From Dehalococcoidia bacterium (GTDB taxonomy: Bacteria > Chloroflexota > Dehalococcoidia > Tepidiformales > Tepidiformaceae), in assembly GCA_022827945.1 (NCBI GenBank), contig JAJEIT010000062.1, forward strand, positions 1 to 64,000: DNA of 64,000 nucleotides, in the 5' to 3' direction. The notes under the pieces were generated by a model, which searched no databases, was not told the DNA's origin, and was given only the letters and a program-made list of their open reading frames with translations. Positions within the stretch are counted from its first letter, which is position 1. Each line of letters opens with the position of its first letter. Below, one piece after another: positions 42,685 to 45,231 of the stretch. The position numbers were made by a program, and so were the translations under genes.

Positions 42685-43596
42685 TCAGGCGGACCCCGAC
42701 CCCAGCTCGCCGCCGTTCCACTCCTCCCAGAGCTTGACGATCTCCGTGACTCCTGCCGTGTCTCCAAGCAGTGCCGCGGCATCCTTCCAGAGGTCGCGCG
42801 TGCGGGCCAGGATCGGCGCCTCCATCCCCAGCCCCTCCGCCAGGCCCCCGGCGATGCCCACGTCCTTCGCCATCAACGCGATGGTGAATCCGGCGCTGAA
42901 GTCCCGGCTCAGGATCTCCTCCGCGATCTTCCCCTGCGTCGCTGCGCTCCGGCCCGACGAGGCGTTGAGCACGTCGACCATCTTCGCCGGCTCCAGCCCC
43001 ATGCGGTCCCCCACGATGAGCGCCTCGCAGGCCGACGACAGCGCGGCTGCCGAGCAGTAGTTATTGAGCGCTTTCATGGCGTGACCCGTCCCCGAGCCCC
43101 CCATCTCGTAGATGACGCGCCCCAGGTGCTCCAGTACGGGCCGGCAGCGGTCGATCTCGTCCGGATCACCTCCCACCATGATCGCCAGCGACCCGCCCCG
43201 CGCCCCGGCCACGCCGCCCGAAACGGGTGCGTCCACCAGCGCAACTCCTTGCGGCTCCAGGTCCTGCGCGAGTTGCCGCGTGCCCAGCGGGGCGGAGCTG
43301 CTCATGTCGAGGAGCACGCTCCCGCGCGCGAGCCCAGCCGCCAGCCCGCCGTCGCCGAGCGTGACCTCGCGCACGATGTCCCCGTTCGGCAGCATCGTGA
43401 TGACCGCGTCGCTGGCCGCCGCCAGCGCCGCCAGGTCGGTCGTCCCCGAGGCCCGGTGCTCCCCCGCGAACGACTCCGCCACGTCCGAGCGTGTGTCATG
43501 CACGGTGAGCGCATAGTGCGGGTCGAGCAGGTGCGCCATCGGCCACCCCATGTTCCCCAGCCCCACGAAGCCGATGCGGGTGATCGCGTCAGGCAT
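42685..43596 (-). CDS. 3-hydroxyisobutyrate dehydrogenase-family oxidoreductase
   Basis: The 303-residue beta-hydroxyacid dehydrogenase has the NAD-binding GFVGLGNMGWPMAHLL, the substrate loop DAPVSGGVAGARGGSLAIMVGG, and the catalytic lysine in GHAMKALNNYCSAA. KDVGIAGGLAEGLG closes the active site. Family members oxidise 3-hydroxyisobutyrate, tartronate semialdehyde and similar acids. It overlaps the upstream carboxymuconolactone-decarboxylase-like gene by 8 bases, implying one operon. Confidence 0.93.
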   Translation of the reverse strand: MPDAITRIGFVGLGNMGWPMAHLLDPHYALTVHDTRSDVAESFAGEHRASGTTDLAALAAASDAVITMLPNGDIVREVTLGDGGLAAGLARGSVLLDMSSSAPLGTRQLAQDLEPQGVALVDAPVSGGVAGARGGSLAIMVGGDPDEIDRCRPVLEHLGRVIYEMGGSGTGHAMKALNNYCSAAALSSACEALIVGDRMGLEPAKMVDVLNASSGRSAATQGKIAEEILSRDFSAGFTIALMAKDVGIAGGLAEGLGMEAPILARTRDLWKDAAALLGDTAGVTEIVKLWEEWNGGELGSGSA

Positions 43597-43972
43597 CGCT
43601 GTCCACCTCCGCGAACACCGCGCGCGCGACGCGGAACCCGTCGAGCGCCGCCGGCGCGCCGCAGTAGACTGCCGCCTGCAGCAGCACCTCGCGGATCTCC
43701 TCCCGGGAGAGCCCGTTGTTGAGCGCCCCGCGCACGTGAAGCCGCAGCTCGTGCGGGCGGTTCAGCGCGGTCAGCATCCCCAGGTTCAGCAGGCTCCGGT
43801 CGCGGCGTGACAGCCCGTCGCGACCCCAGATCGCGCCCCACGCGTGCTCCGTCACCAGCTCCTGCAGCGGCATGGTGAAGTCGTCCGCCTGTGCCAGCGA
43901 CCGGTCGACGTACTCGTCGCCGAGCACCTCCCGCCTGATCGCCAGGCCCTTCTCGAACAGCTCCGAAGGCAT
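43589..43972 (-). CDS. Carboxymuconolactone decarboxylase/AhpD-like protein
   Basis: The 127-residue protein starts ELFEKGLAIRREVLGDEYVDRS and has the RDRSLLNLGMLTALNRPHELRLHVRGALNNG pattern (in part) and EIREVLLQAAVYCGAPAALDGF. This fits PcaC-type gamma-carboxymuconolactone decarboxylase of aromatic degradation, and no CxxC is seen, so it is not an AhpD peroxidase. GGAGGAG precedes the ATG. It is cotranscribed with the hydroxyisobutyrate dehydrogenase-like gene. Confidence 0.9.
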   Translation of the reverse strand: MPSELFEKGLAIRREVLGDEYVDRSLAQADDFTMPLQELVTEHAWGAIWGRDGLSRRDRSLLNLGMLTALNRPHELRLHVRGALNNGLSREEIREVLLQAAVYCGAPAALDGFRVARAVFAEVDSDA

Positions 43973-44049
43973 GGCTCCTCCTTCCCCGCGTCCCGGCGCG
44001 GGCAGCCGGAGCCTACCCCCAAGCCCCTCCGATTGATACGCCCGGCGCC

Positions 44050-44556
44050 CTACCCCTGTGGCGCTTCCTGAACCCAGCTTGCGAGCGGGTTCAGCGTCCG
44101 CTTCGCGATGCGCCAGCCGTCCTCCGTGCGGACCGCGTGGTCGATGTAGGTCAGCAGGACGAGGAAGACGTCGCCGTTCGGCTGCAGGTGCGACGCGTGC
44201 ATGTACGTCGACATCTCCGCGCTCTCGCCGTCCTCGGCGGGCACGATGTTCACGCTCCCGATCAGGTGCTGCGTGGCGATGTGTCCCAGCCCCCGGAAGG
44301 TGCCTTCGACGAACTCGACCCACTCGTCCGGACCCGTCCGCTGCGTGTCCGCGTTCCCCGAGATTGAGATGTCCGCGTCCGGTGTGAAGGTCTGGTGGTA
44401 GAGCGCCCGCCCCACCTCCGGCTCGTCCCGCCCGATGGCGTCGGTGCCCAGCGCGTAGTTCGTGGCGAGTTGCCGGACCGCGCTCTCGATCGCCGGCCAG
44501 TCGGGCCGGTCGCTGCCGCCGGCCGTCTGCAGGACGCGCGGCGTCTCGTCGCTCAC
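44050..44556 (-). CDS. SnoaL/NTF2-like protein
   Basis: The 168-residue protein has an NTF2-like layout: AIESAVRQLATNYALGTDAIGR, YHQTFTPDADISISGN, QHLIGSVNIVPAEDGES and TYIDHAVRTEDGWRIAKRTL. It resembles SnoaL_4-type hydroxylating-dioxygenase-like small subunits. GTG start overlaps the stop of the upstream DsbA-like gene (GTGA), so the two are coupled. Function unknown; the partnership with a selenocysteine-candidate oxidoreductase is noteworthy. Confidence 0.82.
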   Translation of the reverse strand: MSDETPRVLQTAGGSDRPDWPAIESAVRQLATNYALGTDAIGRDEPEVGRALYHQTFTPDADISISGNADTQRTGPDEWVEFVEGTFRGLGHIATQHLIGSVNIVPAEDGESAEMSTYMHASHLQPNGDVFLVLLTYIDHAVRTEDGWRIAKRTLNPLASWVQEAPQG

Positions 44557-45197
44557 GACTGCGCCGCCTCGGTCCGCGGTTCCCGGCCGAGCTCCTTCAT
44601 GACCGCCTGGAACGTCTCGTACTCCTGCGCACCGACGACGGCGTACTGCTCGTCGAAGATGAAGGTCGGAACGGAGCGCACGCCCGCGAGCCGCGCCCCC
44701 TCCACCGCTTCCTCCACCCGCTCCTTGTAGACCTCGTCCTGCAGGGCCTGCCGCAACTCGTCCCCCGGCAGCCCCGCCTCCTCCCCGAGGCGTACGAGCG
44801 TGTCCACACTTCCGATGTCCTCGAGCTCGTCGAAGTAGGCGTCGAAGACGCGGCGATGGAATTCTTCGGCGCACTCGCCGTGGTCCGCCGCGAACTCCGC
44901 CGCCTGCAGCGACAGCATCGAGTTCGAGCGGTGCGTGCGTCCCTCGCTGAACCGCAGGCCCAGCGCCTCGGCGCGTCCTTCCATGTAGGCGCGCGCCTCG
45001 CTTTTCTGTCCCGAGGGTGGAGGCTGCGGCCGCCCCTCGGGCGGCACGCTCGCGTCGAGCAGAAACGGCGCGTACTGCACGTCGACGCCCTCGTAGTCCT
45101 GCTTCAGCCTGTCGACCTCGCCGAGGCCGATGTAGCACCAGTGTCAGACGAAGTCGGAGACGATGGTCAGGACGGTTTGGGCTGCTGGTTCGCTCAT
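44553..45197 (-). CDS. DsbA/FrnE-family oxidoreductase, probable selenoprotein (Sec at TGA 45144-45146)
   Basis: From the ATG at 45197 the frame runs 17 codons to an in-frame TGA (codon 18) and on for 196 more residues. The motif reads SDFV-U-H-W-C-Y-I-G, where the family has DFVCPWCYIG, so the TGA sits exactly at the first active-site cysteine (C21 is kept). Downstream residues (RTHRSNSMLSLQAAEFAADHG, DELEDIGSVDTLVRLGEEAGL, GVRSVPTFIFD) are good FrnE/DsbA sequence without decay. A SECIS-like hairpin follows the TGA. Total 214 residues, the usual length. A TATACT box 6 bases before the ATG suggests leaderless transcription. A pseudogene or sequencing error remains possible. Confidence 0.8.
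45104..45146 (-). promoter_or_regulatory. Candidate bacterial SECIS element after in-frame TGA
   Basis: After the TGA (45144-45146) a 7-bp stem can form: TCGGCCT (45124-45130, minus strand) with AGGCTGA (45104-45110), one G-U pair included. Its 13-base loop contains GAGGTC, and GGTC begins 27 bases after the TGA. This spacing is in the range known for bacterial SECIS elements and the GGTC resembles the E. coli fdhF apical loop. Confidence 0.55.
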
Positions 45198-45203
45198 GCG
45201 GCG

Positions 45204-45209
45204 AGTATA
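45204..45209 (-). promoter_or_regulatory. -10 box TATACT, leaderless promoter
   Basis: TATACT on the minus strand ends 6 bases before the ATG at 45197 of the DsbA-like gene and has no Shine-Dalgarno after it; it therefore has its own promoter despite following the MMPL gene closely. Confidence 0.5.
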
Positions 45210-45231
45210 CGGAGCCTCGCCCGGGCCGGCG

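Follow-up and report, generated by a model that had tools for sequence, protein, structure and literature searches.

The protein described here is assigned to COG2761, the FrnE group. Selenocysteine (Sec) forms of FrnE/DsbA-like proteins have been published since 2005, when an analysis of the Sargasso Sea named a 'DsbA-like protein' comprising nine COG2761 sequences among its new selenoprotein families and predicted a SECIS for it (PMC1088965). The GOS study of 2008 included 63 sequences of 'DsbA 1' (pfam01323, UxxC; PMC2398784), and in a 2026 review 'DsbA-like protein form 1' (PF01323, UxxC) stands among the high-confidence predictions, the functions of such predicted selenoproteins being described there as largely uncharacterised (PMC13188914). 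A cysteine-containing relative, FrnE of Deinococcus radiodurans (DR_0659), has been described as a disulfide reductase/isomerase of the cytoplasm that carries a CxxxxC regeneration motif at its C-terminus, a motif missing from some accepted FrnE proteins (PMC8945050).

In the window, by which we mean the whole 64-kb stretch of DNA that was analysed, a gene almost certainly encodes a selenocysteine form of an FrnE-type (COG2761, DsbA-superfamily) thiol:disulfide oxidoreductase (Table 1). It adds a strongly supported member to a family already known, and it leaves the principles of selenoprotein knowledge unchanged. With the DsbA-like protein form 1 family, whose published representative is NIP15863.1, it has in common the Pfam and COG assignments, Sec as the first residue of UxxC, a predicted bacterial SECIS immediately downstream and an origin in environmental bacteria, but it comes from the Chloroflexota (Dehalococcoidia) and carries histidine after Sec (UHWC). 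The FrnE proteins of D. radiodurans and of the PDB share with it the DsbA-like domain and an active site in the equivalent position (SDxxCPWCYIG), with homology over residues 10–206, but have Cys where the window protein has Sec. Unlike DR_0659, the window protein is without a C-terminal CxxxxC: besides position 18, its only cysteine positions are 21 and 109, and the translation holds no Cys beyond the latter.

Table 1 Features of the selenoprotein locus in the window.
Feature	Position	Strand	Basis
Sec-containing FrnE/DsbA-family protein (predicted), 214 residues, Sec at residue 18 (UHWC)	44553..45197	-	translation with TGA read as U; Pfam; PDB
TGA read as Sec, first Cys of the CxxC active site	45144..45146	-	68 TGA and 22 TGC/TGT among 90 aligned homologues of the class
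Putative SECIS hairpin, 8-bp stem TCGGCCTC/GAGGTCGA, loop GGC, 13 nt after the TGA	45112..45130	-	covariation; codon shuffles
Candidate -10 box TATACT (45209-45204), possible leaderless promoter	45198..45213	-	GGCTCCGTATACTCGC identical in seven genus sequences
SnoaL-like domain protein, start overlapping the selenoprotein stop (GTGA)	44050..44556	-	Pfam SnoaL_4, E=3e-18

The sequence-only reading had noted that, in an otherwise intact protein, a TGA in frame takes the place of the first cysteine codon in the FrnE motif, and our analysis confirmed frame, coordinates and motif. From the ATG at 45197 to the final TGA at 44555–44553, the minus strand carries a single frame whose sole interruption is the TGA at 45146–45144, and translation of this codon as U gives ...IVSDFV-U-HWCYIGLGEVD... 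around Sec18. With residue 18 taken as Cys, the protein matched the Pfam DSBA profile with E=9.5e-29 (101 bits against a curated cut-off of 25.6), and FrnE structures in the PDB (5cnw) matched with E=1.8e-16 across residues 10–206. A single-sequence AlphaFold model reached a mean pLDDT of only 42.9, so the fold is assigned from sequence homology only. The protein is most likely cytoplasmic, because a thioredoxin-fold strand stands right at the start of the sequence, which shows no obvious signal peptide. We also considered membership of the NCBIfam selenolipoprotein family NF041057 (Rcas_1661 family thioredoxin-like (seleno)lipoprotein), which was rejected at 51.3 bits, where 190 are needed, from a match to the C-terminal half only. 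When the 64-kb window was scanned for in-frame TGA codons near Cys-type motifs, 106 places came up, a level of noise that is usual for a GC-rich genome, and inspection by eye found a conserved active site only at 45146; a scan for viral contigs found nothing.

A homologue of the protein is present in 126 of 294 genomes of the same class, and 90 homologues, including the window's own sequence, were read codon by codon. At aligned codon 18, 68 carry TGA and the remaining 22 carry TGC or TGT, with no other codon occurring, and further in-frame stops are confined to the C-terminal end. All of the 89 other homologues conserve the frame past the TGA, so that its presence in the window is not due to chance. 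All five other members of the genus with a detected homologue (77–85% identity) have TGA, as does a homologue with 89% identity (L052). An alignment of homologues, proposed by the sequence-only reading as a check, thus placed the Sec/Cys alternation at exactly codon 18 and revealed no disabling stops elsewhere.

The genome that contains the window (2.85 Mb, a draft in 99 contigs, 95% complete) was searched family by family for the selenocysteine machinery, and all of selA, selB, selC and selD, whose absence would have spoken against a selenoprotein, were found. selA was detected with E=1.4e-155, selB with 301 bits and tRNA-Sec with 71 bits, the latter two above their cut-offs, and ARAGORN called a tRNA-SeC(tca). 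selD (E=1.6e-102; contig C22:122333-123268, locus L010 in genome G000) carries its own in-frame TGA at the catalytic residue (tgc ggc ggc TGA gcg tcc aag, C-G-G-U-A-S-K, within CGGUASKA) and is itself a predicted selenoprotein; selenoprotein forms of SelD are known, with UxxK in the review table (PMC13188914). The two further DSBA-profile matches in the genome (L118 and L119) are frames with ordinary CPFC motifs. Additionally, the same translation-factor start was seen at the ends of two contigs (C61:7-165 and C76:7-165), with equal matches to the selB profile, probably because an elongation-factor gene is duplicated and the assembly broke there.

Across the class, selenocysteine machinery (selA, selB or tRNA-Sec) is held by 68 of 68 genomes with the TGA form. 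In nine of these, several of which are incomplete, selA is missing or partial, a deficit likely explained by missing contigs, and each has selB over the cut-off or a tRNA-Sec. The nine nearest genomes with the Cys form have no selA, no selB over the cut-off and no tRNA-Sec, and in three more distant Cys-form genomes searches for selA and tRNA-Sec found neither, while ten distant Cys forms sit in selA-positive genomes. Tabulated with and without machinery, TGA forms stand at 68/0 versus 10/12 for Cys forms (Fisher p=2.4e-9, uncorrected for kinship). When only tree-independent pairs are counted, the direction is always the same (4.5 to 0), and with just 4–5 informative pairs the median p is 0.125, so that p<0.05 is not reached. 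On a tree of 90 proteins (loci L020–L116), 11 changes between Sec and Cys are needed, at least eight of which are forced by well-supported branches. In several clades the Cys form accompanies complete loss of selA, selB and selC, whereas elsewhere, for example in family f34, Cys forms occur in selA-positive genomes. This repeated switching, with the Cys form sometimes accompanying loss of the whole system, makes the FrnE family well suited as a natural series in which to study why Sec is retained or lost.

Just downstream of the TGA lies a hairpin, 5'-UCGGCCUC GGC GAGGUCGA-3' (45130–45112, minus strand), which has the small, G-containing apical loop just 3' of the UGA that is sought in a bacterial SECIS. 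The sequence-only reading was right about a hairpin after the TGA, but it had described a 7-bp stem with GAGGTC in the loop; the conserved stem has 8 bp, and GAGGTC falls in its 3' arm. For an isolated 55-nt piece, the minimum-energy fold is an alternative with GAG in the loop (z=-1.76), although relatives support the 8-bp stem over this fold. In the window gene alone, 11% of codon shuffles also give 8 pairs. The window sequence by itself would therefore make a modest and not decisive case for a SECIS; the case rests on the relatives, across which the predicted hairpin is decisive.

Among 26 distinct TGA forms of the close clade, all 8 pairs are kept (mean 8.0 versus 6.04 +/- 0.21 in codon shuffles), while Cys forms of the same clade have 5.78 pairs versus 5.46 +/- 0.28. 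Folding energies over 21 nt agree with this, at -11.2 for TGA forms versus -4.8 when shuffled, and -3.3 versus -3.4 for Cys forms. In an alignment of 34 TGA-form sequences, 95.6% of cells pair, and the covariation score of 0.284 exceeds that of the shuffles (0.133 +/- 0.015; 0 of 500 as high). Shuffling leaves relatedness in, but the Cys forms, which cover the same region of the protein, provide a control. Both sides have changed in four of the eight pairs of the TGA forms (C-G to U-A, C-G to A-U, U-A to A-U or C-G, and C-G to G-C), and sliding the partners abolishes the signal. For the same structure, 21 Cys-form sequences give a score of 0.183 versus 0.182 in shuffles, with 71.4% of cells paired, equal to the shuffles. 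The predicted hairpin thus behaves as a SECIS, being kept only in TGA forms.

These data bear on three other explanations of the interrupted frame. The TGA might have arisen from TGC or TGT by a nonsense mutation, whether real or artefactual, in a dead gene, an idea to which the draft state of the genome, with its 99 contigs, and a second unusual base directly adjoining the TGA (CAC for CCC/CCG) lend some credence. However, 68 genomes share TGA at the same codon with the remaining frame intact and conserved, the genome holds the full selenocysteine machinery, and the hairpin is kept in TGA forms only. A sequencing error at this codon is very unlikely, because independent genomes share the same TGA, and for the TGA codon the homologues refute the reading as a pseudogene or error, to which we assign a negligible probability. 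A variant code in which TGA is decoded as Trp or plain Cys is just as improbable: several homologues have Cys, so that insertion of Cys would also give a working enzyme, but TGA is the ordinary terminator of the selenoprotein gene itself and of its relatives, and the machinery and the putative SECIS are both there and go together with the TGA form.

Translation might also begin downstream of the TGA, for instance at the GTG at 45080, yielding a 175-residue protein that lacks the active site. A mechanical ORF at 45080–44553 exists, and standard annotation would probably call it, but this start would forfeit the conserved DFVUxWCYxGL segment and leave the interchange of TGA and Cys codons and the SECIS unexplained, and we consider it extremely improbable. 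Standard gene callers truncate or miss the selenoprotein gene and its relatives, and FrnE-type proteins are therefore probably under-annotated in the class. The selenoprotein interpretation, by comparison, is supported by the complete machinery, by TGA, TGC or TGT at the aligned codon and by a hairpin that passes covariation and codon-shuffle tests. The TGA at the catalytic position, the completeness of the machinery, the conserved, covarying hairpin and the co-occurrence with the machinery are all directly supported.

In the mechanism that we propose for the selenoprotein, we infer readthrough of the UGA in vivo, the redox chemistry, the substrates and whether the enzyme works as a reductase or as an isomerase. 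A ribosome would reach the UGA at codon 18 of the mRNA, where SelB carrying Sec-tRNA-Sec would bind the hairpin inside the coding region, just downstream of the UGA, so that selenocysteine would be inserted rather than translation terminated. The selenolate of the U-x-W-C motif would then attack disulfides of substrates, or other oxidised thiols, and the Cys three residues after Sec would resolve the mixed selenenyl-sulfide.

Relative to the family motif CP(W/F)C, the UHWC active site differs twice, with Sec in place of Cys and His in place of Pro. The latter replacement, described as unusual in the sequence-only reading, is indeed so: His follows Sec in the window sequence only (1 of 90) and Pro is found at this position in all others, with an active-site triplet of PWC, PFC or PYC in 88 of the 89 and PYS in one distant homologue. 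The His codon, CAC at 45142 and thus right after the TGA, shows a single C-to-A difference from the Pro codon CCC, and either is genuine or reflects an error of sequencing. Histidine elsewhere in the motif tunes the active-site pKa and redox potential in the CPHC of DsbA and the CGHC of PDI. By analogy, UHWC could be a real and functional, lineage-specific selenoenzyme variant in which His adjusts the pKa of the selenolate and the redox potential, although we regard this as rather unlikely.

The neighbourhood of the gene agrees in part with what had been proposed. Coupling of the downstream gene through GTGA was correctly recognised, the partner being the SnoaL-like ORF at 44556–44050, which is followed by a gene of the CMD family (carboxymuconolactone decarboxylase-like). 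The order of selenoprotein, SnoaL-like and CMD-family genes, the last two at 43589–44556 (minus strand) of the window, is conserved within the genus, and no sign of it was detected in relatives beyond the genus. The window's CMD-like gene is without an in-frame TGA; other CMD/AhpD proteins are known selenoproteins. On the upstream side, the leaderless promoter suggested before the ATG comes down to a TATACT box, a candidate -10 element that ends six bases before the ATG of the selenoprotein gene; a sigma-70 scan upstream of the gene gave no promoter match and no -35 element. Leaderless expression of the gene is nevertheless plausible, because the 16 bases of GGCTCCGTATACTCGC are invariant in seven sequences of the genus, while the rest of the 34-nt gap after the MMPL gene is variable.
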